From Isoetes taiwanensis (taxonomy: Eukaryota > Streptophyta > Lycopodiopsida > Isoetales > Isoetaceae): a DNA stretch of 64,000 nt. Where the stretch lies: positions 16,578 through 80,577 of the forward strand of contig JAJEKV010000840.1 in NCBI GenBank assembly GCA_021234155.1, written 5' to 3'. Each line of letters opens with the position of its first letter. Within the stretch, counting starts at the first letter, position 1. Below the pieces are notes generated by a model. That model worked only from the letters and a program-made list of their open reading frames with translations, was not told where the DNA came from and made no database searches. The position numbers and the translations under genes are program-made. Positions 37,977-53,231 of this stretch are shown in pieces.

Positions 37977-38240
37977 AGGACTAGTACCTAAATCTTTGCC
38001 CGGGTCCTAGGCCCCATAAAATTTGGGGTGGCCCTGCTAGACGAGGCAACGCACGAGCAATATAACTGTGAATCTGGGGTAGAGAAGGTTTGTTTCAATT
38101 GAAACTAAGAATTTCCGGTTGAGCTAGCGCATTGCAAAAAAATTCCCGGTAGATTTTTATGCACATTTGGATAAGGGTAATACAACTTTCTGATTGGGAA
38201 CAGAAAATATCAGACTATTGGAAAAAACATTAGGATATTT

Positions 38241-38290
38241 TCTACAAGAAATTTATCGCGGCGGCCTTGGCCGCCGCGAACATTTCTCTT
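38241..38290. mobile_element. CACTA (En/Spm)-like terminal sequence with GC-rich palindrome
   Basis: CTACAAGAAATTTA followed by the palindrome TCGCGGCGGCC-TT-GGCCGCCGCGA (38256-38279; 11-bp perfect arms). Plant CACTA elements begin CACTACAAGAAA and often carry subterminal GCGGCGGC repeats. The CACTA pentamer itself is degenerate here (TTTTCTACAAG), and no partner end or transposase was found. Confidence 0.4.
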
Positions 38291-41127
38291 CATAGACGGA
38301 TTCACGTAAGGATTTTATGCAAGGAAGACTCACGTAAGGATTTTATGGAAGGAAAGCTTTCTGTATGCCCTCTTTTCCTCCTATATGCAAGTTAAAAGAT
38401 GAAATTGATGTCAAACATTTGCATCGACACATGAAATTGAACAAAGTCCCCAATAAAGTCCCCCGTCTATCCACCCATAACTATTTAAGCTATGAGCTAC
38501 ATGAATTTGAACAAAGTCCCCGGATGATCTAATTCAAACTTCTTGCATCCATCTGTTGGGAGATTAAATAAATGCTCATGCATCTTTTGTTTCAACGCAT
38601 TGAGCACAGTTGAGCAAATTATGTGGTTTATCTTTGTTTGCATTATGAGTCAACATTTCAAGGTGTTGAGCAAATTATCTGGTTTTTTTTTTGTAGTTTC
38701 AAAATAGATAGACATCTCTTTTTTATTTTCTTTACCTTGTAAGCAGCATCATAATTGTCCATTGTTAACAATCTTTGCAAGGTGCAATGAAGGAAGAAAT
38801 ATCTTAATGGTTGACATGCATGTCCGTATAATCTTGCCTATATCTTCCACCAAAGACTTGAAAGCCATGATGATACTACATAGAGCAATCCTGGCCTCTG
38901 TCGTGTTTACATCCACATGTATTCATAAGCTATTAATTCCAGCAATGAATATCACATCAATACTTGAAATAACACATTCCAAGACTTGGGCTCGCTCTCA
39001 AGTTCATTCTAATCGTGTTGAATCCGACCTTCACACTTATATCAAGTTTAGATGTCTTCACATTGTACGCATAATTATCAGACATGTCATTATGCCCTAA
39101 GGGACCTAGTTCCTGCATGAAAATTACGATATTACTAATAGCTCTAAACACTTTTCCAAAATTAGAAACAATTCTGTTATTGTAAACAAAAAAAAAAAAA
39201 AAAAAAAAAAAAGAGAACAGAGGACCTGTTGAGTTTGAGCAAATACATTGCCTTAAACTCTCATTATAGCATTCCAGAGCCAAAGAATCCATCTAGAAGG
39301 TATGACTAATACTTCAGTTGCTGCAAAGATAACTGTAGCATAGTTTAAGGGCTTCAGTTTCCACATCACAGTTTATCCCAATTTATCTTTGGAATGCCAT
39401 AAGGTAGTGCATACTCAATTGTGTCCAACATAAGAAAAACAAAAAGTAGTGCTTGATATGCTTTCCAGATGCGTGTATATCTCTTCAAATACCTATAAGG
39501 AAGCCATAATATTAGGCCATATATTTCTCTGTGGTATTCCTCAATAGTGCAATCTACTTTAAAGTATGAATAGCATAGCAGGGTCTCTTCTTCTTGTATA
39601 AGATTGGATAGTCACCAACAGTGGTCCTAATTTGTTGACATCTATGACAAAAGATTAAAGTAGAGATGGAAAATAGTGTTAAACAGCATGGTCAAGAAAG
39701 CTGCACTCATCTTCTATGCTTGTTGTGGAAGAAACCTTTTATATTTTTACCGCTCATGTCAAACTGGAGTCATGTACCATTCACAACATCTTACGTGAAC
39801 TTTTGAGGCGACAGGACCAATTCGGACTCAAAGATCCGGCTCCGGTGGAAGAAGAGTCGTCCAAAAGCCCGAAATGGTATCGATGGTCTCGTTACGCTCC
39901 TTTCATGTTACCCACTAGATAAATTTTAGAACCGCCTAGCCCAAGAGCAACATACCCAAGAGGCATTGATTCATCCCTCGCACTAACGGTATTCTAAAAA
40001 GATTCACAAAAAAAAGGGGCTTTAGCTGCAATTTTACCCGAAAAGCGCTTCTCCAAAGATCGCTTCAAAGACTGGAGAACAAAGATAGCCTAACTACAAA
40101 TCAAAGTAACGTAAATCATTTTCATGCTTTATCTTGCTCTGGCAAAGGCGGCGTAGTCGGACAAAATCGTTTCGGAGCAAAGGTCCAAAATTATGGAACC
40201 AAGGTCGCATAGCTGTTGCCACAACTTGGATCGTAATGGGGTGGCCACCGCCAGGATTCAAAGCTTTGACGCCAGAGATGTTCCAGAGAAGAAAATGGCC
40301 GCCTAAGATTGCGCCCAGATGATTTTTGCACGTAATCAGAGCGCCCACCGCCTTTGATCCGACTGACTAATCGAAATGAATGCAAACGGAAGTACCGCAT
40401 GCAACTACGTAGAGTTAGGGCATGGCGGATTGGTATGCCACAACGTGGATCCATGCCCCGCTGTGGCCGCTATTAATGGTGGATCCGCCTCAACGGAACC
40501 GCCAGATTTTTCCTATTTTTTGTCGCCAGATTTTTTCCTCGAACGGGTGCGTGTCACCTTTAGAAGGAGGCATCGAAAAAGAATATTCCAAAGAATTTTC
40601 ATAGGAGAGTTATATATGTTAGATAGGGTTTAAAAAGTTTGCCCTAACACTCCAAGCAAAATTGCCAAAGCGTAATAAACGCTTTGGTTTAAATTTTGAC
40701 CACCGCAGTTTATGCCACCCGCCATTTAAAGGGTATGTTTGTAGATAATTTTTGGTGACTTCTTGATTTTTCGCAAGAATCAAAGGGCGTTTGATTTCGC
40801 TCGAAAAAAGTTTATCCGATCCAAAGTTAATCTTGTTAATCTCGAGAACCGCCATTCTTATAACGTGGATGCAACCTAGGTTGCATTCTCCTCAATCGGG
40901 TAAAACTTCAGAATCGAGGGTAGAAAGCATCGGAATGAGAGGTAGATGGCCGAATGAGAGGTAAATCGCCCGCATTCGGAGGTAAATCCAAGTAATTTCA
41001 AGAACGCGCCGCTCTTCACTTCATGTGGTTCCGAAGAGAACCTTAGCCGATGGCAATGCCATTGGCGGATATGGCGTAATGCAACCTGTTGCATTTACGA
41101 TGGAGGAAACCGTGATTGGGAGGGTTT

Positions 41128-41193
41128 TTGAAATAAACCCCCGGGTCGCCATGAAGCCCGGCGCCGCGAGGGCGCGCCAGGGGTTTATTTCAA
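41128..41193. repeat. Palindrome with 14-bp perfect arms and GC-rich loop
   Basis: TTGAAATAAACCCC and GGGGTTTATTTCAA are exact reverse complements separated by 38 bases. The loop contains further inverted pairs (CGGG...CCCG, GGCGC...GCGCC). It could form a cruciform in DNA or a stable hairpin in RNA. Confidence 0.9.
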
Positions 41194-41758
41194 GAAACCC
41201 CGAGCCAACGCGCTTTTGGCGCCATCGTGAATGTCCGAAGAGGCGAATTTTTTGCTACGTGGCAAAAATTAGGTCTAAAAGTAAGTTTCGCCTTGGCGAT
41301 TCGTCGCGGATATGCGACCCCCGCTGCGGATCCGCCCTCATTTCTGCGATATAAGCGACCCCATTTTCGCTTTTACGTGATCCGCCCCTATTTCTTGTTA
41401 GATAAGCAAGAAGATTGAAGATAGGAATTTGAAGACATAATCCGGCCCCCGTTCTTGTCTAAAGATTGAAGCAGGAGCTGAAGTTTCTTGATATATAAGC
41501 AAGAAACGCCGGAAATCGTGGTGGAAATCGCCGGATTGGTTACAGGATGCTGGCATTGCACCATTTCCACAGGATGAAAAGGGATTTCTGTGAACCGAGC
41601 TCTAGAGCTCTTGGCGAGCTTGCAAGGCGGTGAAAATCGCCGAGTGTCGGCATTGCATCGTTTCTTCCAGATCCTCCGTGAGCTCGGCGGCGCCACCGAG
41701 CTCCCCACGGACTTCGCTCACACTATCTCCCCCCGATTGGGGTTATTAAAAAAAAAAA

Positions 41759-41799
41759 GGAAACCCTTCCAAATTTCCCTAAAATCCGGAAGGGTTTCC
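41759..41799. repeat. Foldback element, GGAAACCCTTCC type
   Basis: GGAAACCCTTCCAAATTTCC and GGAAGGGTTTCC form a hairpin next to an A-run. This copy carries the CCCTTCC arm type, not the CCTCCCC type seen at 26.6 and 30 kb. Confidence 0.9.
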
Positions 41800-42178
41800 A
41801 CAAGAATATATTTTTTTGGTTTTTTGAGATCCACGGTAATTAATTCTTCGAATTAATTTTTTCTGTTGTTATTGAAGAGGTTTGCAGGAAATTTTTTTGC
41901 TCTTTAGCGCTTCCTCCGGCGGTTTTCTTCTTGGCGATTGAGGAATGCCTACAGTCGATCCAGGAAGTGTTTTTAGGAGCAGTCAGGTACAGAGAAACCC
42001 TTCCGGAGTTCGGCTTCAATTCCGCTTCTTTTTTTTTTTTGCTTTTTAACCGATTGAAAGCTCGGCAGAGTTGCATTGCGTAAAAATCTTCTTTGATGCA
42101 TCCTCAAATCGGCAAAGCAGGATAGCCAGCAAACACGATAGAATAGGAAGGGTGGTTTTCAAAACACATGTTTAGGTG

Positions 42179-42250
42179 GGTTTTGAAGCATTTGGAGCAG
42201 ATTTTGAAGCATTTGGAGCAGATTTTGAAGCATTTGGAGCGGATTTTGAA
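42179..42250. repeat. Three-copy 22-bp tandem repeat
   Basis: TTTTGAAGCATTTGGAGC(A/G)GA is repeated three times. On the plus strand it would encode FEAFGAD repeats, but no surrounding reading frame supports a gene. Confidence 0.9.
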
Positions 42251-42739
42251 AGGGATTGAATCCTGGGGATTGGAGAAAGATGTGAGGATGATTAATCCGG
42301 CTTTTTAAAGCCATCGCATTTTTTTTGCATTAAGCAATAGGTTTAAAAAAACACGAGCATTTGCCACAGGGGCAATGTTTGAAGCGTTCATTCCATCACC
42401 GGGCCAGCAAAGAAGAAGCCAGCCCAAATGCTTTCTACTGTTCCCACTTTTGCTTATTCCCCAAACAAGGATCGTATTTGATCTATCTTGCCATTTCCGC
42501 AAGCACAACGCATATTTTCTCGCTTTCTTGATCCATATTTTCTGCCCTGATGTTACAATATGATCTATTATTTGTTTGTTAAATCTAATGGCAAGCAGGT
42601 ATGTCTCCTCTTCCTACATTTTTTTTCTTGTCAATAAGCATTTTACCCGCCATTCTTTTGTAAGTGATTTTCCCCCTTTCTGTGTTTGCAGTGCAAGCCC
42701 TTCTTCGAATTCTCTGTTTAGCATGTAAGCAAAGGTTTT

Positions 42740-43283
42740 CATTTTGAGTTATTTTCCCATGTGATTTTATGGTGATGTGGCCAAGGAAAGTGAACGATAC
42801 CGATGGATGGGCCCCTCACGTTATGATTATGCTGGGGCTAAGGTCTTCATGAAACATAGGTTTGGTTTCTAGATCTTATTTTGGTTATAAAGCAGCAATT
42901 TCTTTTAGCACTAAAGCACATGTTTATTGCTAGGAAATATGAAGTCGAGTTTTTTCTCGCTTGGAGGTCGGGGAATACTTACGTAGCCTTGGGCAACCAT
43001 TTCAACGTAGAAAGCGTCCCGTTATTCAAATGATACATTCGTGGGGTAAACTGCCCTGTTTGTGCCAAATGCCAAGAACGTATGGTAAGAGCAATACATC
43101 ATGTTTGTCTCATGATTCAAGATGGCACACCTCAAGGGGTCTATTTCATAGTGTTGGTGCTTTTGTAATATCCCGGCCATTGTTGGATAAATCACCAAAT
43201 GGATTGGTGCCTAATGCCCATTTGGTCGATGGTCTTCTTGATCTTATTCTCATCAAGGAATGTTCACGGCCCACGTATTTCTG
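42740..43283 (+). pseudogene. Ceramide kinase (CERK/ACD5-like) fragment, two C-terminal exons
   Basis: Ceramide kinase phosphorylates ceramide at membranes; in plants it restrains cell death. An exon around 42740-42859 encodes FYGDVAKESERYRWMGPSRY and DYAGAKVFMKH, matching the conserved catalytic-domain region. It has a GTTTGG donor. After a 70-bp intron ending TTGCTAG, the next exon (from about 42931) encodes RKYEVEFFLAW, NCPVCAKCQE, then in shifted frames SVGAFVISRPLLDKSPNGLV and HLVDGLLDLILIKECSRP. These follow the family order. At least two frameshifts occur in the second exon, and the N-terminal half and the last exon (FTFTS...WNLDGE) were not found, so it is a non-functional fragment. 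Confidence 0.8.
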
Positions 43284-43989
43284 ATTGGGTTTGTCAAAAC
43301 TCTTCTTGTCTTATGCAATTGAATCAGTAGTTCATGAATGCAAGATGATGGGGAATATATTGGGTTTTGTACGGAATAGATCTTTTATAAATATACACAC
43401 ATACAAATCCAGTGTTGCATTGTTTGCAAGATTGAAACAAATGATGCATTCTCCATATTGTTAGCTTCTGGTCTTGGAGACTGGAAGGTTCTGGATTTTA
43501 TTCCAATAGGATGAAGAAGGCGTAATCGATTATTATAGTGTACAAGGTTCACATTTCGGGAGTATATTATAGGCCGGACTCGGATAAGAAAGTTAACTAG
43601 TGCATAGCAGACATTGCCATACACCATTTAAATGGCGAGATGCTATAAGAATCTTTCCACCTATTGAGTTGCATCACTTATCAAGCTTGAATGTGATTCT
43701 GCGCCACTTTAGTGTAAAGATAATTCAACATAATCAAACATTGGTAAATGAGATAGAAGGTAGGCGCTATTTTTGATAGATCTGTTTTAATCTTCATTCT
43801 TTACATAAGTTTCTGTTGAGTATGTGAAATGTTAAAAATTTGCCTTTCAGTTTTTACAGGTTACAGAACTTTGTACTTAGAATTCTAAAAAACTTTAGTT
43901 TATTGCATAGGAATTAATGTAAGATACTGGAATAGCCAATTTGGCCCTGTGCATAGCTTATTTTCTATTCTTGAACATCTGGGGAAAAA

Positions 43990-44531
43990 TAGTTCATGAA
44001 GCATTTGAAGCGGAGACAAATAGCCAAGGCGAGAGAAAATTGCGAGTGTTCTTTGAAGTAGTTGCAAAGGATGCTAGGAAGGTGAAGATGTTCTAGTAGA
44101 GGTAATAGCTAAATTTGCATCCGCATATCCTCTTACATATACCCTTAATATGGTCATATTTCCTTGATATATTTTTAGGTACAAGAGAAAGCCAAGGTTG
44201 TTGAAGAAGAGCTAGATTCTACTGTAGATAACTTGGGTGAACTTTCTAATAACCTTGATGGCATTGCCAAGAAAGTTATATGAATACTCCAACAGACAGG
44301 CCCATCAAGAAAAATGGTAACTAGATAATTGCTTATCCTATAATTAAATCATAAGTTTGTTAATCGAGCAATGTCTCATGCAGATGAGGTGGTGAAGAAA
44401 GATCTAAAGGGTGCTACTTCAATTTTTTATTAGTTGATGCTTCAATTTGAGCTCAAGATCATCCATATTATTGCAGTCATCATCCTTGCTGCGTTGGCAG
44501 GATATTTTAAGTTGGATGTTTCTAAAACATC
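43990..44531 (+). pseudogene. Unrecognised coiled-coil / membrane-anchored protein remnant, three exon-like pieces
   Basis: I do not recognise the family. Exon-like pieces are bounded by fair splice sites. About 43998-44101 reads VHEAFEAETNSQGERKLRVF then FEVVAKDARKV (donor GTAATA). 44179-44318 reads VQEKAKVVEEELDSTVDN then LGELSNNLDGIAKKV, strongly heptad-like, after acceptor TTTTTAG. 44384-44531 reads EVVKKDLKGATSIFY, stop, LQFELKIIHIIAVIILAALA then GYFKL, which ends in a likely membrane helix, after acceptor CATGCAG. Stops in pieces two and three indicate decay. The pattern (acidic coiled coil then C-terminal anchor) suggests a tail-anchored or organelle-membrane protein. It lies downstream of the ceramide kinase fragment on the same strand. 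Confidence 0.4.
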
Positions 44532-44719
44532 ACTCAATTCCATAACACAATCTCTTCAAGACTATGTACTATGTAAACTTATAGCATGTTAAAGGAAAGT
44601 TTGGCATTTGTTTGGGATTGTATCATGTGGCACTTCACACACAAAGTTGTGTATGTTCTTATTCAGATAAATGAAATGATCTACACAAAATGCACACATG
44701 TATGCCTTAAGCTTGTAGC

Positions 44720-45044
44720 CTAATTGCCTACGCCCATTTCGTATGGAACCAACACGCAAGAACATGACATGCGATCTGCAGACAACTCCTTTCCTCTCTC
44801 TAACATATTACTCCACACAGCTTGGAAATCTCTCGTGTCCAGCAGCATGTTAGCAGTTACCTCTGCAACAGAGGGATGCAAGGGCCGGGACCACTCGTCA
44901 TCTTCAGACCACGGGTTGTGTCCATCATGCCCAACACGAATGTGTATTGTGGCAGAACTATCTGTACTCGGATTGCTCCGTATCACTGTGCGAAGACGAA
45001 ACCCGCATCTTATCTTAAAACTCCTTCTTGTCTGTCTTCCCTAA
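44720..45044 (-). other. Unidentified minus-strand open frame
   Basis: An open frame on the minus strand ends at 44720 and contains TIHIRVGHDGHNPWSEDD and SRPLHPSVAEVTANMLLDTR. Its composition looks protein-like rather than random, but I cannot assign a family. The opposite strand is open as well, so coding status is uncertain. It ends 60 bp from a foldback element. Confidence 0.25.
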
Positions 45045-45101
45045 CACAGGCCACGCCTCCGTGCACTTCCCCTCGCGCCCTTAGAAATTTTTTATCAAAC
45101 G

Positions 45102-45152
45102 TGGAAACCCTTCCTATTTTCCCATGGCTTTGGAAAATAGGAAGGGTTTCCA
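45102..45152. repeat. Foldback element, GGAAACCCTTCC type
   Basis: TGGAAACCCTTCCTATTTTCC pairs with GGAAAATAGGAAGGGTTTCCA around a 9-base loop. It corresponds in position to the single hairpin at 30108-30151 that precedes the array there. Confidence 0.92.
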
Positions 45153-45264
45153 TTTAAATTTAAATTTAAATTCTTGGGTGTCGTGCATAGCGTGCACCAT
45201 TAATGGCGGCGTGCGTGTTGGGTGCCGTGCGGCTTGAAAAAAAAAAAAAAAAAAAATAAATAAA

Positions 45265-45515
45265 TTGGAAACCCTTTCTATTTTCCAAGGAAACCTTTCC
45301 GATTTTCAAATGGGAAACCCTTCCAATTTTCCATTAAAACCAGGAAGGGTTTCCATGAAAACCCTTCCTATTGGAAAATAGGAAGGGTTTAGAAACCCTT
45401 CCTGATTTTAATGAAAGCCTTCCAATTTTCCATGGAAAATAGGAAGGGTTTCCATCGAAATTTGGAAGAGTTCCATGGGAGCCCAACCCAAATAGGGAGT
45501 ACTTAGAACCATCGC
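45265..45515. repeat. Inverted array of GGAAACCCTTCC / GGAAGGGTTTCC units
   Basis: Begins after an A-run. At least four forward units (GGAAACCCTT(T/C)C) and three reverse units (GGAAGGGTTTCC) occur, with spacers ATTTTCC/GGAAAAT that also pair. It ends with CCATGGGAGCCCAACCCAAAT and ACCATCG, the same edge as at 37.9 kb. Confidence 0.88.
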
Positions 45516-46086
45516 ACCAGACTGGTTTCCTGTTTTAAACAAAAACATAAAAAACACGAAAATTCCGCTTTGCAGACGTTTACGTTGTCTGAAATCTGGC
45601 TATGGAGCGAGCGACCCACTAGCAAAAAGAGGCCGGAGCAGAGAGAAGACGGAGTGGCAAAGCATTGTAGCCCAATCCATGATTTTGGTCACAGATTCGT
45701 CACTTTCATCAGACTCTGAGCTCCCTGCAGACTCCAAGCTCATGATTGTCATAAATCAGAGGGCTAGGCCAGACTGATTCGAGATCAAACTCCAGAAACA
45801 ATCAAGTTTTGCAACAATCTACCTAAATGGACTGAAAATTAATAAATTAATACCTGCTACTTCTGCTTTTTCTTTTTTCTTTACGAAGCGGTAGCTATCA
45901 ATCAACTCTGCGCGCCCCCAGAATGAAGATAAGATATTATTTATGCACAATAGCAACAGTAACTGGACCAATTGGGTGTAAAATATAACACACAAGAAGC
46001 AAGAATCAAACATAAGACTGGTGGTACAAAATCTTACAGCATATCAACAAAACCATGTCACCACTTCATAATATACATACAAACTT

Positions 46087-46545
46087 CTAACGGCCAGCAA
46101 TCACCCACAGTGCATAGATAATTCCGGGAAGGTATCCGAAACATGTCAACAGCAGACATATCCAGAATTCGCACTGCAATAACAAACAAGTATGCAACGC
46201 ATCAGCCAGATTTCCTTTTCCCTTCCGTCCATATCTGTTCTCAAGATGGAATAAATTTTTTCTCAGATGGAAGACAGAAAGAAGACAAAACTTTGATAGA
46301 ACAGCTCCAAAAGCAGCTAATTTTACAAGAATAAGAAGCTAAATCTAATCGTTAGCTAAAATCCGATTCTGTTTTGAAGAAACAGGGCTTATTTTTGCAA
46401 TCTTTGTCCATAGGATCAAGATCGAAAGATTTGTAAAGAAGTAGAGCTAAAGAAAGCTTACCTCGCATCCATACTTGAGGAAGACGCCAAGGGGCGGAAG
46501 AATAATAGCGAGCAATATATCTACAAATGTCGCAGTGTCTCCCAT
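46087..46545 (-). CDS. RCI2/LTI6 (PMP3-family) small hydrophobic membrane protein
   Basis: A plasma-membrane proteolipid of two helices, induced by cold and salt, that affects membrane potential and ion balance. Exon 1 (46545-46462) encodes MGDTATFVDILLAIILPPLG then VFLKYGCE. The intron (46461-46174, 288 bp) has GTAAGC and TTGCAG ends. Exon 2 (46173-46087) encodes CEFWICLLLTCFGYLPGIIY then ALWVIAGR and a stop. The 56-residue product keeps the whole family signature (LPPLGVFL, EFWICLLLT, GYLPGIIYA), and the length is as expected (about 54). No disruption is seen, so this is the best candidate for a functional gene in the window. The start is the first ATG and fits the family N-terminus. The W in ALWVIAGR is unusual; relatives end YAIY(A/V). 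Confidence 0.95.
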
Positions 46546-46607
46546 GGCTATGGCGGAATGGCAGCTACGAGAAAGAGGCGCTTTGGATAAATTCGGCAAT
46601 CCGGCGA

Positions 46608-46620
46608 CGGATATTTAAGG
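46608..46620 (-). promoter_or_regulatory. Possible TATA element of the RCI2/LTI6 gene
   Basis: On the minus strand CCCTTAAATATCC lies about 65-75 bases before the start codon. It is a weak TATA match, judged mainly by position. No cold-response element was identified with confidence. Confidence 0.3.
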
Positions 46621-47771
46621 GAAACAGAGCATCAAAATGAAGTAACCAGCCAGCCTATATTATTCTTTGCAAACCAATTTCCAGCTGTCCCAAAAAAGCT
46701 TTCAGTGCTGCCAACAAAAAGCGTTTCCAAAATAACATTACCATTCTTACAATATATTACCACACTTGCGTTTCCTCACTTGCTTTGTAACATTACCATT
46801 CTTTTAATATATTGCTGACACAGTTCTTCAAAAAAAAAAAAAAGTGTTTCCAAAATGCCACCAAAACAGACAAGTTTGTTTGTTGAAATGTTGCTTTGGT
46901 TCCTCTTTCACGTTTCTACCTCTCATAAAAGTCAATTCAATTTCTATTGAATAAAAGTAAATTATGCTTGATATTATAGCTTCTATGGTCATAATCCACT
47001 TTTTTTTTTTTTTCCTTTTCTCGGACTCTTGCCAATTGTTGGTTGGTTGCATATTGCTTTCATTTCTCATGCCCCATTGAAACGAAGTTAATTGTATCTG
47101 ATAATTCAATAGTCATAATTGATGCTTTGGTTTTTCTCAGGTCTATGCCTTCACTCTGCCAACCATTGTGCCACCTTCACTCTGCCAACCATTGTGGCAT
47201 GTATCTCTGCTCACATGCTAATATCCCTCGTATTTAACCTCGTACGTTCCTAGATCTTCGCCATATTTTTATGCATTCTGCATACACTGTAATTTCCAAT
47301 CTGTTGCCCCACCCATGTTCCTCCCAATGGTTATGTGACATTACAAAGATATTCTTCATCATTGTTTGTCGGTGGCATAAAGGATGGTGGCAACTCTTTT
47401 CTCATTGCTGGACCTTTGTTTCATGTGGCCACCCCTATAAAGAATGAGGAAATAATAATGCATTCTCCAAGGTAAAAGCACTTTGCATCCTGTATATCTG
47501 GCTAGCACCTATTGCAAAAAATAAACTAAAAAATAATAGAATAGAATATAATATAATAGAATGGTTTAGGTCCTTTTTTTTTCTCCTTCATCCAAGGTTT
47601 ATGTTCATAAATTTTGATAGGCCTCCCTCTTTAGTGCATGTTGCTAGATATGGTGCCTGCTCCATGACATATTTAATGCCTACGTAGTGAGCATACTTCG
47701 AGCATACATTGGGCATTCTATATCCCACATACTATATAGAAGTTGGCATATAGATTACTGTATATAGGAAG
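46621..47771. other. Intergenic, no recognisable gene
   Basis: Upstream of the RCI2/LTI6 gene. Contains A- and T-runs (46830, 47000) and a 29-bp tandem pair (CCTTCACTCTGCCAACCATTGTG at about 47148 and 47177). No gene recognised. Confidence 0.5.
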
Positions 47772-47975
47772 GACAACCAGTCTAAATTTCGGGGTGGAAG
47801 TACTGCCGACGCATGCGACACCAGTTTAAACTCTGGGCCATCAATGACAACAAGTCTAAATTTCGGGTGGAAGTATTGCCGACGCATGCGACTCCAGTTA
47901 AAACTCTGGGCCGTCAGCAGTACCTCCATGCTGCACGCATGGACACTGTTTCCCAAATTTAGACCAGGGTGTTGT
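47772..47975. repeat. Tandem 70-bp repeat plus inverted copy, upstream of the replitron gene
   Basis: Two direct copies (about 47772-47842 and 47848-47915) share AGTCTAAATTTCGGG(G)TGGAAGTA, GCCGACGCATGCGAC and AACTCTGGGCC. At 47920-47970 the reverse strand carries related pieces (GGTCTAAATTTGGG, CATGCGTGCAGCATGGAGGTAC). The mixed direct/inverted arrangement 250 bp before an HUH-endonuclease gene makes it a candidate element terminus. Confidence 0.8.
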
Positions 47976-48221
47976 TCGTACAACGTGAAAATAGGGAACC
48001 AACAATTCAACAGGATTAAAATCGTGGAACATCGAATTGAAATCATGGAATGTTAGGTTAAAAATGTTGGTATATAGTTGGCTAGTTCATGAAATGGTAC
48101 ATTTGTTACATATGATTTCCAAGGTTTCGGGCATGTATTGTATGTTTTTAGATATGTTTTGAGGACAAAAAGGAATCTGTATTCCTCCTGTATTTAGGGA
48201 AGGGCTTGGAACGAGTTGGAC

Positions 48222-50307
48222 ATGGCGTCTCCATGGTTCGATGCGAGTCCCCTGAAGAGAAGCTCCCCCATGCTTTTTTTTCATGGAAAAACTAGATTAC
48301 TTGGCAATTTTGGCATTCTGTCAGACTATAAATACGCTTCTTTGACGAACCTATCAGGTGAGCATCTTGCTTGTATTTTTTTAGCTTGGTTTATTTGTTG
48401 TATAATGCAATCTTACTGGTACGAGGAGGGAGGCTAGAAAAGGCCATCGTGGCATACATGGCCAGGCAGCCTCTTCTTCAGCTAAGTTTGCTGTGGATGG
48501 AGGCAGCCATGTTGTGGACGATGAGGGCATTGGCCCTTTGGATGTGAGTGTCACACTGGGTGTGGCTGGAATGGATGCACCCAGAGAATTCTTTGACATG
48601 CTTGTTAGCTTCTGTGAACAAGATTGTGTTGCAGGGGCTGTGGCAGCAGAGAGGAGGAGTGATTTAGACCACCTGCACTACCAGTATGCGTTTAGAATTG
48701 CCCTTAAGGCTCCTCGAACGGTCAATCTGGCTTTGAAAAGGAGATTTGGCTAGGGAGCTAGGAAACCTGTTGGTGTAGTTCTTGTTTGCAAGGCATTCAA
48801 GAACACGAGACTGCATTGTTTTGAGGGCCTAATAGGGTACTGCATGAAGGATATGGGCAAGGCCCATTAGGATCCACACTAAGAATGTTTATGAGAGGCA
48901 ATTGGAGATGGGCAAAGATCTGTATTTGCTTTATGGTGCGGGAGACGTGGAGCATGTTGTTGTGCGTGATGACATGAATATATTGGGAAGGGCCCTTCAC
49001 TTCGTGAATTATCACAGAGGGAGGCAATTGATTGCTAGCCTTGTTTACACAATAACCAAAATGCTTCGGACTGGTTAGTTCATCCTCTCAACCAGTTGGA
49101 TCCTCCCTTCAAACACATCATTCATATCTGAGCATAGAGCGAAGGTTGCATGGCACTTGACCTTAAATCCCAGAGTTGCATTGCTTAGTGACGTCCGTTG
49201 TGTGTTGCATGACATCCCAGCTGGGATGGAGCCTATTCAAAGGCTGGGCAAAGGGCGCAAGCGTTATTGGGACGAGCCTGGAATGCCTGGGAACATGGAT
49301 GAGAACTTTGTTGAGGAGCAAGATGATGAATATAGACCTGAAGCCATAGCTAACGAGCCTGGGTGTTCTTACATTCCTTTGGACACCGCAGAATATACAA
49401 TGGTTGTTGGATGAGTTGGTATTATAGGGCATGTTTGTAAATATGTTGCTTGTGTTTTGACATTCTTTATTTCTTTGCAGTTAATTGTTGATGCCTGGAT
49501 TAGAGATGGAGCAAAGCAATGGGGTTGCTTGTTGGCGAGGCGACCTCAGTCGCCATGGACGATGGACAATGTTTCTTGATGGGCAGCATGTGCCTCATGT
49601 CAGCAGTAGCCATGTTGGGGTTGTCAGAGTAAGGGCAACACCAAATAATGGGGTGATTGACATTAGTGATGATGAGCCATCTCCTTCCCCTCCTCGTAGG
49701 CCTGTTGCACTTGGGCCTAGCATTCAGGATCGATACGCCTATGCCATCTCCTGTTGTGTTTTTCTCGAGCAGGGGGCGAGTGCGGGGTAGCCGGGAGGTG
49801 GCCTCTTGTTGTGAACATTAATACTCTTGCGGAATCGGTGGCATCGGGGCAAAAGTATGTGGTGGGTATCAAAAAGAAAGGGGACACATCGACAGCACTC
49901 ATATAGCACCCCATATGGCAGTTTGTTTAAGGTGTTACTGGTACTAGCACACGGTAATTAGGTAATCAATAGAAATATGTAACAACTCCAATTAATAACA
50001 AGTGGAATACTATGATAGAATAGTACATCCAGGGTGCTGATCTAAGTCTTTGGGGCGCGTTTTTTGATACCCACTAGCATACTTTTTGCCCATCATCTGC
50101 TCGGCTATTTAGAATGCAATTGGGCCGTTTATTTGTTTGCTGGAGGATGCCGTGTCACACATGGAATGGGAGGAGGTGGAGGTTAGTAGTGCGAAGAGAC
50201 AATATATGCGCGCTCATATGAACTTGGAGAGGGCATTTCTGATTAGGGAGCTGCGCCGAATTAATGTTATGGCAAGGAGGCACAATGTGGCCATGAACAA
50301 TAACTAG
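48222..50307 (+). mobile_element. Replitron-like (HUH endonuclease) DNA transposon, coding region
   Basis: Replitrons are eukaryotic transposons that encode a single HUH endonuclease thought to nick and rejoin single-stranded DNA. The element is placed by its gene (next entry). Its outer limits are not defined; the 47772-47975 repeats are the best candidate for the left end. It lies 1.4 kb from a Penelope-like element on the opposite strand. Confidence 0.7.
48440..50307 (+). pseudogene. Replitron HUH endonuclease gene, lightly decayed, multi-exon
   Basis: Reading the plus strand: strand motif LDVSVTLGVAGMD (48540-48575); CEQDCVAGAVAAERRSDLD followed by HLHYQYAFRI, where HLH is the metal-binding HUH motif (48672-48680); then TRLHCFEGLIGYCMKD (Y-x-x-K with the candidate nicking tyrosine, about 48835-48850). 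Family C-terminal blocks follow: RIHTKNVYERQLEMGKDLY, LYGAGDVEHVVVRDDMNILG, ITKMLRTG and AKVAWHLTLNPR. Damage seen: TAG after LKRRFG (48751), one frameshift after MGKAH (about 48868), TAG after LRTG (49075). A later exon after acceptor TTTGCAG (49482) gives LIVDAWIRDGAKQWGC, then GVIDISDDEPSPSPP in another frame. A last piece ends NVMARRHNVAMNNN at 50307. A possible first exon lies at 48222-48357 (MASPWFDASPLKRSSPM; donor CAG before GTGAGC). Motifs are seen; the family name rests on remembered replitron proteins. Confidence 0.8.
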
Positions 50308-50449
50308 GTAATGCTTTGATGCCTGTCAGGGATAGGTTCAATACATATATGTTTTATACTCAATACGCGATTATTCGAATGATATCAAGACAAATTTGAA
50401 GTATAATCGCCACAAATCTGACCAAAAAAATTAAAGATCGGAATTTTCC

Positions 50450-50780
50450 ATGTGTTTAAAGTGAAGGTTTTGCTTACGCGAAACTTAAAAAAAAAAAAAA
50501 AAAAGGGAAGAAGAATCACGAAAAAAGTTTTCACAGTGGGTTTCGCTGCGAAAATTAAAAATAAATAAATAAATTTTACAGCAAAAAAAAAAAAAAAAAA
50601 AAAACCGATTTTTTTTTTTTTTTTTGAACTTTCACAGAACGAAACCATATGCATGAAACTTTTTCGCGCAGTAGCTGAAACCGAAGATTACGGAAAAAAA
50701 AAATCGCGTAAGCAAAATCTTTAGTTTCGCGTAAGGAAGATTTCGCTTACGCGAATTTTTTTTTTTTCCGGCCGACGAGG
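50450..50780. repeat. Homopolymer and TTCGCGTAAGC palindrome cluster
   Basis: Contains an A-run of about 22, then CCG, then a T-run of about 17 (50583-50625), which can pair with each other. The motif TTCGCGTAAG or its reverse CTTACGCGAA occurs four times (about 50474, 50703, 50725 and 50744), in both orientations. This has the look of a foldback or MITE relic. No coding content. Confidence 0.7.
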
Positions 50781-51116
50781 GAAAAATACAAAAAATACTA
50801 GATTTACCTAAAAATACGTATTTTTGGACTTTATACGTCCAGATAAATAGTTTCATCGCATGAGAACCTATCCCTCTTTGCTGTATATTCATTTCTTTGT
50901 TGTTTTTGTTATGTGTGGTCTATTGCATTTGGAAAAGCAATAAAAAGCTAAAAAGAGCTTGTGGATTTCATGTGCCAATTTGGATGGGAGATTCTTTTTT
51001 ATTATGTGGGAAGATCTGTTGTATGTGTGATTGCGTTGCATTACTTGATTGGGGTTAAAAAAAGAAAAAGGGAAATAAAAGAGAAGGGGAAAATGATGTC
51101 TGGTTGGAATTGCATG

Positions 51117-51207
51117 CTGCATGGGATTAGCCCCTGCCCTTTAAGGGCGGGCGGCTGCTCGGAGCTGCGCATTGCACAGGGGGTTCGATTCCCCCAGCTC
51201 GTTTCTA
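51117..51207 (+). other. Possible SINE head (pol III B box)
   Basis: GGGGGTTCGATTCCCCC contains a perfect B-box core (GGTTCGATTCC) with a 5-bp stem like a tRNA T-arm. Upstream GGATTAGCCCCTGCCC is only a weak A box. The flanks do not form an acceptor stem, so it is not a tRNA gene. A tRNA-derived SINE is plausible. Confidence 0.35.
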
Positions 51208-51524
51208 CATTTGCATTGCAGGTCGATTGGATGCAGCTGTTGGTGGCGCCTCTCATTGAGGCAAGCTTCATATCTCATGCTACCAGGCATGTCTGTGGTT
51301 GTCGGGTCTTATGAAAAGTTGCCCAAAGATATGATCAAACCGGACACGATATCTGCCGAAGTTGGTCGCCCTGCCGCGTTACATGCTACATTGAGCACGC
51401 CGTGACGGGTCTTTGGGATCATATCTTCAGGAGGTTATGGACATGCGAGATCAGCTATGTCCTCGGGCACACACTTGACATGTATATAAACATTGATGTA
51501 TACTTATGTAGTTTGACAAAGATT

Positions 51525-51680
51525 CTTATTATCGCCACGCGGTTTTTCCTCGAAAACCTTCCTTGGGCGGGGTTTTTAACCCGGACAAGAATAAGTTTGT
51601 CAAGGCCCTTATGGTCCCATAGGCCGATTGGCCTCGATGGACGATAAAAAATCATTCTCATTCTCATTCTCATTCTTTAT
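51525..51680 (+). repeat. LTR-like dispersed repeat, copy 2, ending in (ATTCTC)n
   Basis: Carries ATTATCGCCACGCGG, TTTTTCCTCGAAAACC, GGGCGGGGTTTTTAACCC, ACAAGAATAAG and GGTCCCATAGGCCGATTGG, the same blocks as 11030-11290 but in opposite window orientation. It ends in about four ATTCTC units (51653-51677), exactly where the Penelope-like RT reading frame breaks off. Confidence 0.6.
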
Positions 51681-53231
51681 CATATTTAATCCGTAGTTTA
51701 TTGTTGTAATGTAACCCCTTCATGTATTCCCATGTTTCATGAATTATCATAGAAATCACATGGCATATACCGATTAAGCCCATAAGTGGTATGCATTCAT
51801 AACATCTTGTGATATCAGCAACAAACATGTCAGTGATTTTATCTGGCATATTCACGACCACATCATATATAGATTGGACCATCCAGTTGGGGTATATTTT
51901 ATTCGGGAACAGATTACAAAATTGTTCACATGACTTTCTAGCAATACTAGGCCATATTTCCACTATCATGTTGAGCACAACAGTGATAACATTAAAAAAC
52001 CTAGTGTACACCGTTCTATGTGCATTGGAGATCCATCGATATTCCTTTTTATGGGCTTTATAAATCCCTAACAGATATGGTAATTTTTCACAACTATCTT
52101 CAGTATACTGCAGAATATTTACCATCTCTGTCTTACATTTCCAAATAACAACAAACTTGTTCCATTTCAACAAGTCTGAAATCTTTGCTATTAAGTCTTA
52201 AATCCGCCATTTCTTTCACATGTCTGGGGCATATGAAGACTGGGTTATTTGTAGCTTTGTCTACTCCAGAGACATATAAGAACCTATTGAGCCAGATTAT
52301 GCTGTTAATCACCCTGATATCACTTAGTGGGAATTTTCTAGTAATATCATTCTTAAATGAGTCCTTGATCATTTGTTATGCATACTCTATGGTATGCTCC
52401 TTTACCTGAGCTCTGATCTCATCGTCAATATGAGGATACGTATACTTATGTATTTCGAATAGTTTATCAATAGTGACTTCCATGTCATTTTTGAAGTCCT
52501 TCCAAACTAGGCTCTTGTCCGGGATATGATTCAGACCTTGCATAAGCATCTTCCTCAGTTGTTTATTTTGAACTACATTACAGTCTGTAGTTCTGATGTG
52601 GCCAATACTTGGATCTACAAACTTCTTTAGTTGCAGAATAGAACAGGGGCAAACATCTTCACTATCTTGAGCAAAGATATAGTAGGGTTTGTAACAGAGG
52701 TCTCTCATATTTTCTGTATAGCTCCATGCAAACATAGTATCACTCATGATTGCTTCCCCAATTTCTCCTAGGCAGTCTACCATCACTCTATGTATTATTT
52801 TGGGTATACATACCTTGTCCAGTATTTTGGATAAAAAGGTGCTATGTACAATCTTAAGGTTCTGTTTGGGGGAGATATCTTTAAGATGTAGTCTGCCCAA
52901 CAGATCTTTCTGTAACACTTTGGATTTCTGAAACGAAAATACAGTTAGTTCTACCATCCGATTAGTACATTAGTCCTAAAATATTTCATAAAATTAGATG
53001 GATGCTTAAGGCTTTTCAGACTCTCTGAATTAGAGATCTGAAGCAGGATAGAATAAGCCACATGGCCTAGGATTCCCTCATAAATAATGAAGTATCCATT
53101 GGTGTTAGTGTCATCCAACTAGGATTAGACCCAACTTTTATTCATAAATGCAATCATTTATTAACCATAGAAATAGCACATACATAAATGAGTATATTTT
53201 CAATTAGAGCAAAACATACCTTATTTTTCAT
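51670..53231 (-). pseudogene. PLE reverse transcriptase ORF (N-terminal region to RT block 3)
   Basis: Proposed start is the ATG at 53231, with exon 1 of four codons (MKNK), an intron (53219-52928) and exon 2 from 52927 (KSKVLQKDLLGRLHLKDISP). Family blocks in order: CPCSILQLKKFVDPSIGHIR, KQLRKMLMQGLNHIP, FEIHKYTYPHIDDEIR, GVDKATNNPVFICPRHVKE, LPYLLGIYKAHKKEYRWISN (RT1-2), then FVADITRCYECIPLMG (RT3 with the first catalytic D). These match the PLE pattern of N-terminal domain, CPR.H, LP.L...KxHK and D...Y..IP. Damage is limited to an in-frame TAA at 52376 and one frameshift near 52160. The frame ends at 51670 at an ATTCTC repeat, so RT4-7 are absent. PLE identity is strong; a sub-clade cannot be set without the C-terminus. 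Confidence 0.82.
52928..53219 (-). other. Probable spliceosomal intron in the PLE RT ORF
   Basis: On the minus strand AAG before GTATGT (donor, 53219) and TTTTCGTTTCAG before AAATCC (acceptor, 52928) bound 292 bp. Splicing joins ATGAAAAATAAG to AAATCCAAAGTG in frame. The intron itself contains stops, so the RT ORF would otherwise lack its first codons. Introns in PLEs are known; this one is inferred from sequence alone. Confidence 0.6.

Follow-up and report, generated by a model that had tools for sequence, protein, structure and literature searches.

Whether a run of protein motifs in the DNA of a lycophyte marks a mobile element, whether that element is still alive, and how its relatives join the genome are the questions raised by a locus in the 64,000-nucleotide stretch of Isoetes taiwanensis analysed here (the window; positions count from its first base). 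Craig 2023 (PNAS 120:e2301424120) is said to be the founding paper on replitrons. In PMC10741241, replitron hosts include lycophytes, and the elements are described with short direct terminal repeats of 5–11 bp and target duplications of 2–8 bp. A first-pass annotation had placed a replitron-type HUH endonuclease transposon at 48222–50307, about three lesions away from an open gene and for that reason recently active. It is very probable, in our judgement, that an autonomous replitron, assigned here to family A, left a dead copy at this locus that is truncated at its 3' end, and we propose with this reading a mechanism by which such elements insert. The searches covered an assembly of 1,658,258,908 bases in 1110 contigs.

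The plus strand of the window carries VSVTLGV, DHLHYQ, GYCMKD, NVYERQLEMGKDLY and MLRTG in that order, so that the strand motif, the HUH motif, the Y-x-x-K segment and both C-terminal blocks of the first-pass annotation are all present and in sequence. Translated with its in-frame TAG as X, the HUH stretch matches Pfam Replitron_HUH (PF21859) with 40.3 bits (E 4.9e-10), over the cut-off of 28.5 bits, the profile search being one of the checks suggested at the outset; the open piece of the window alone scores 14.3 bits, under that cut-off. Two pieces of the window align with the exon-1 protein of L016, a relative (104/154 and 139/181 identities, joint E 1e-142), so that the motifs reflect homology and not chance. 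All 20 of the aligned relatives match Replitron_HUH, relatives' scores lying between 58.6 and 72.1 bits, and the D-S-T of the first strand, E-R-G, D-H-L-H-Q and Y-C-K-D are invariant in the 20 aligned rows. Replitron_C (PF21860) is matched weakly, by 7 of these 20 at E ≤0.1 (best 0.0052), and L019 reaches 14 bits against its cut-off of 27. Neither a helicase family nor a Y1 transposase family was found in Pfam for exons 1 and 2 of L015 and L019 or for the 20 exon-1 rows; a search of the PDB by sequence gave no match, PHROGs gave a weak match to one family of unknown function, and none of 20 pattern stretches in the prokaryotic set genome_contigs was confirmed as a relative. Reading by eye found no terminal inverted repeats at the element ends (left ATATAG or ATAATG, right CGATA). 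The ends of family C, ATAATGTG on the left and ATAATRCA on the right, are candidates at most for short direct repeats, and the ends of families A and B have ATA alone in common.

The copy in the window is longer than the span first given to it, although the end of that span, 50307, does coincide with the stop codon of exon 2. Its left limit is set by L005, L007 and L009, which start at the base matching 48072 and have flanks unrelated to those of the window; L006 starts at the same base, but its flank is common to the window. By the empty-site reading described below, the first base of the copy itself is 48074 (ATAG), the preceding AT being target. Homology to L008, L009, L040 and L056 stops at 51314, and the final ~245 nt of L009 are unmatched in the window, so that the copy lacks its 3' end.

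Features of the replitron copy in the window, with the evidence that places each
Feature	Position	Strand	Basis
3'-truncated replitron copy of family A bearing two nested insertions	48072..51314	+	Left end common to L005/L007/L009; end of homology
HUH endonuclease stretch of exon 1 (strand motif, HLH, YCMKD)	48406..48867	+	PF21859, 40.3 bits; tblastn against L016 exon 1
Exon 1, second part, in a different frame	48869..49411	+	139/181 identities to L016 exon 1
Region of the relatives' intron	49412..49480	+	GT...AG keeps frame in relatives; inferred
Exon 2 remains (acidic part, helical C-terminus, end MNNN and stop)	49485..50307	+	tblastn with L016 exon 2
Nested 247-bp insertion, inverted ends GGGGCAAAAGTATG / CATACTTTTTGCCC	49844..50090	.	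Missing in L005, L006, L007, L010
Nested 554-bp insertion, inverted ends AGGGATAGGTTC / GAACCTATCCCT, downstream of gene	50327..50880	.	Missing in L005, L006, L010

The count of about three lesions is right for no more than the HUH exon, which has in-frame TAG stops at 48751–48753 and 49076–49078 and a frame shift near 48868. For the whole copy it is an undercount: the remains of exon 2 lie in three frames and are split by the 247-bp insertion (tblastn with L016 exon 2 gives 43/62 identities and shorter pieces), there is no ATG at the position where relatives are taken to start, the 554-bp insertion lies downstream, and the 3' end is missing. Both nested insertions, of the GGGGCAAAAGTATG and AGGGATAGGTTC types, are MITE-like. 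Elsewhere in the window, a run of overlapping open frames of 80–197 codons occupies the minus strand at 51670–52969, with no Pfam match over cut-off and no useful match in a PDB search of one frame, and direct and inverted copies of TGGAAACCCTTCCTATTTTCC cluster at 45102–45463.

The recent activity that had been read from few lesions is not supported by the longer list of lesions or by the comparison with L006 (C1035:15640400-15647600), a paralogous segment that has the same insertion. Pieces in common extend over window 37982–50993 at 83.2–93.5% identity, the replitron included, and the piece with most of the element (window 47854–49843) is 88.5% identical; the insertion is thus older than the duplication of that segment. 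In-frame stops occur in 9 of the 10 best genome matches after the window itself, the exception lying on C1069, and some shorter matches beyond these ten are also free of them. Activity later than the window copy is seen instead in B-type and C copies, from open first exons, from a nearly identical pair of copies and from insertions whose flanks are 97–100% identical to the empty site. Families B and C are about 65% and 45% identical to the window piece, and six of the 10 B/C copies examined (L012, L013, L015, L016, L019 and L020) keep a stop-to-stop first-exon frame, 347–443 codons long, that extends as far as the closing TMA(I/V)G. The pair, at L110 (C996:20093212-20097000), consists of two short B-type copies, oriented alike and separated by 205 nt, which are 99.5% identical over 1632 columns and both extend 8 nt past CGATA. 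The reading of later activity extends to the B-type and C copies and not to family A as a whole.

The relatives are numerous. The Replitron_HUH profile gave at least 150 matches in the genome from 2165 first-look candidates, with 150 of 150 scored over the cut-off, and matched none of 14 control genomes; a search with the window piece gave at least 150 relatives from 1900 candidates. The exact 19-base right end of family B occurs 27 times, and its reversed control not at all. Four full-length B copies measure 2888–3147 bp, and short derivatives with both ends comprise ten of 688–1400 bp and one of 2214 bp, none of which has a match of at least 120 bp to the HUH exon of L016; the size of the full-length B copies lies within the replitron range of 0.9–4 kb. 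These derivatives bear on the proposal that the locus belongs to a decayed host gene family, domesticated from a replitron and no longer mobile. Long open frames are kept in some copies, as such a family would have them, but copies of 688–1400 bp retain both ends without the HUH exon, and insertions, for which there are empty sites, lie within satellites and other repeats, so that we regard this proposal as scarcely credible. The alignment of genomic copies that the first-pass annotation had recommended thus yielded ends, empty sites and the open first exons of B and C.

Several further observations were made on the family. In L040 (C1090:1964600-1968500), at about 627, a family A right end abuts a left end in a head-to-tail junction. 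A satellite-like array spaced at about 620 nt, noted at the site of L109 and on C319, C358, C369, C454, C612 and C933, holds a replitron derivative. Further lineages in the same genome (L084/L085/L089/L090/L094, L091/L095/L099 and L088/L096/L097) have different N-terminal parts, which are basic, RG-rich or coiled-coil-like, and are 39–49% identical to L016 where aligned.

In the relatives with open frames, exon 1 is predicted to encode an HUH endonuclease of the single-tyrosine, Rep-like kind, and exon 2 an acidic, helical part; removal of a putative GT...AG intron, worked out by hand, leaves the two exons in frame. Overall confidence in the AlphaFold2 model is low (mean pLDDT 66.7, pTM 0.46), but ten-residue blocks from 41 to 170 average 78–97. 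Ranks 1–7 of VIA-align, over about model residues 36–161, are Rep nucleases of circoviruses, nanoviruses, geminiviruses and smacoviruses with Z of 9.9–8.0, followed by polyomavirus origin-binding domains with Z of 8.0 and below, in a program that warns that Z of 7–8 is common; the Y1 transposase of IS200/IS605 is not among the structures listed, an absence to which we give no weight. Foldseek against the PDB gave no match at E ≤0.001, its best being a circovirus Rep (E 1.2e-2); against viral models it gave 93 matches at E ≤0.001, of which the named ones among those listed are Rep or NS1-type and most rows are nameless. Modelling, which had been recommended at the outset for the HUH active site, thus gives a predicted fold of the HUH/Rep-like kind.

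This likeness raises the alternative that the locus is the remnant of an integrated CRESS-DNA virus and not a transposon. Strand motif, HUH and Y-x-x-K are names used for the motifs of CRESS Rep, and both their order and the predicted fold are Rep-like, with CRESS Reps heading the structural list. Unlike CRESS Rep, these proteins have no helicase domain that we found, show at most 17% identity over the aligned part and belong in a transposon context. Replitron_HUH is the sole Pfam family over cut-off in the relatives listed, no viral Rep family was found in Pfam at E 0.1 for 20 members, dispersed copies have both ends in common and empty sites, and none of 43 candidate stretches in viral_contigs was confirmed as a relative; a viral origin is already disfavoured and, on this evidence, highly improbable. 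The original identification, a vascular-plant HUH transposon of the replitron type, is therefore supported by the Pfam match, the genome family, the common ends, the empty sites and the Rep-like model.

How such elements insert can be read from their junctions, because the genome supplies many ends and empty sites, along with short derivatives and open frames. The 50 left ends compared have C at position -2 in 28 cases, A at +1 in 45 and T at +2 in all 50 (base frequencies at the loci: C 0.20, A 0.27, T 0.30), where +1 and +2 lie inside the search motif and the informative cases are the exceptions (CT, GT, TT) and the empty sites. The 50 are drawn from 12 C copies, from 29 A/B copies that retain both ends and from 9 more A/B copies; the window and L006, one shared insertion, are both counted, and L010, L011, L015, L021, L040 and the second left end in L038 are left out. 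A search with the joined flanks of 24 insertions gave empty sites for 14, and at 11 of these 14 loci the left-flank dinucleotide is present in every empty site examined. It is present in 1 of 4 empty sites for L031, in 1 of 4 for L039 and in the single one for L016 not at all, cases that we count against our preferred explanation. The left junction of the relatives is exact in flanks and empty sites and follows a target that usually ends in AT. From these empty sites and the agreement of filled and empty sites, as in L113, where the dinucleotide is TT in both, we conclude that the dinucleotide is target and that the element itself starts with ATAG (A/B) or AATG (C).

The right junction is of another kind. 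Among 31 A/B right ends (L009, L011, L014, L015 and L022 being left out), 27 end in an exact CGATA and the next base is A in 26, after which conservation fades; since the 31 were found through that end, this conservation is partly by construction. L014 and L022, one shared insertion, end in CCATCAAC, short of CGATA, and also count against our preferred explanation. CGAT was tried and rejected as an exact right cut, given that the right end of family C continues as CGATAATRCACCC in 6 of 9 copies (less in L017, L044 and L047) and that the L110 pair has 8 nt in common past CGATA. A right-end hairpin was likewise rejected as a feature of all families: z is -5.7 and -3.0 in two C ends and about -2 in 3 of 4 folded B ends, and it is -0.05 in L031 and +0.4 in L011 and L009. 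We make no claim for a branched structure observed at the right end in B.

We scored the right junction as the length from CGAT to the resumed target, minus the same stretch in the empty site. The 11 loci scored give values from -4 to +32 nt: L112 -4, L027 +1, L102 +4, L106 +8, L113 +10, L031 +11, L029 +14, L036 +20, L109 +29, L033 +32, and L025 +2 (by eye, from the closest anchor; a more distant anchor gives +8). L030 and L039, whose empty sites are too diverged, and L016, substituted at the site, are unscored, and small differences are less sure at L106, L025, L029 and L036, where one or both flanks are less than 90% identical. At L033 and L109 imperfect target copies stand at the right junction, and since the flanks there match the empty site at 97–100% identity, these odd junctions are unlikely to stem from later decay. 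The window copy has lost its right end, and the target duplications discussed here are those of relatives. In the 29 A/B copies the left flank resembles the right one more closely than in swapped pairs (0 of 5000 permutations), but 4 of the 29, and no more, exceed the 99% control, and 8 C copies give no target duplication (1531 of 5000 permutations); both of the latter results again count against our preferred explanation. Candidate target duplications are 5 bp after extra bases in L029 and long imperfect copies in 4 of 29, and none is evident in the others. Exact suffixes of the left flank were rejected as target duplications, as 18 of 30 copies have none and the lengths are close to those of swapped pairs, with the exception of 17 bp in L013.

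We propose, as a tentative account to which we give somewhat less than an even chance, that insertion is asymmetric. The HUH enzyme would cut one strand after NNAT, its tyrosine would hold the 5' end of the element and transfer it to a target that had been cut behind a similar sequence, and a seamless left junction would result. The 3' end would be released less exactly, near CGATA, and error-prone host repair would close it onto the target, leaving extra bases and imperfect target copies. The 8 nt that the L110 pair has in common past CGATA fit such an imprecise release, and derivatives with both ends and without the gene presumably moved in trans. The exact left junction, the target preference, the variable right junction and the short derivatives are seen on relatives; the roles of the enzyme are inferred from them.

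The same junctions might have been made by ordinary, concerted joining of both replitron ends, with a short target duplication or none, the odd right junctions being later mutations, older nested events or wrongly chosen empty sites. The nearly clean junction of L027 (+1), with L025 at +2 by eye and L102 at +4, fits this, as do the rarity of exact suffix duplications and the position of most A/B copies and of 8 of 8 C copies inside the control range. Such joining has more difficulty with L033 and L109, whose +32 and +29 and imperfect target copies occur between such well-preserved flanks, and with the left junction, which lacks this scatter at the same loci. We consider concerted joining a serious possibility, at roughly two chances in five.

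Asymmetric insertion would set these elements apart from better-known ones. IS200/IS605 elements have a single-tyrosine HUH enzyme and insert next to a short target motif that is kept at the left flank, and the replitrons here resemble them in both respects; they differ in a right junction that is not exact. Helitrons are eukaryotic HUH elements with a RepHel helicase, the target A^T and a hairpin near the 3' end. Unlike Helitrons, the copies studied here have no RepHel helicase that we found, other termini and a target that is not A^T; they are like them in being eukaryotic, in the HUH enzyme and, for family C, in a hairpin near the 3' end, Helitrons being among the subjects reviewed in PMC10741241. 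With replitrons they have in common HUH scores over the Pfam cut-off, ends at which no inverted repeats were seen, full-length B copies of 2.9–3.1 kb and a lycophyte host; unlike the 2–8 bp given in PMC10741241, their apparent target duplications are variable, often displaced and imperfect. The window copy is accordingly a fossil of a known kind, lycophyte replitrons being already in print (PMC10741241), and heterogeneity of the right junction may already be described in the founding replitron work, so that we do not claim it as unpublished. What the Isoetes taiwanensis genome supplies is replitron ends and empty sites in numbers, with short derivatives and open frames besides, and a junction pattern that makes a testable prediction as to the strand held by the HUH enzyme and the agent that closes the opposite end. 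Asymmetric joining, if true, would separate replitrons from both IS200/IS605 elements and Helitrons.
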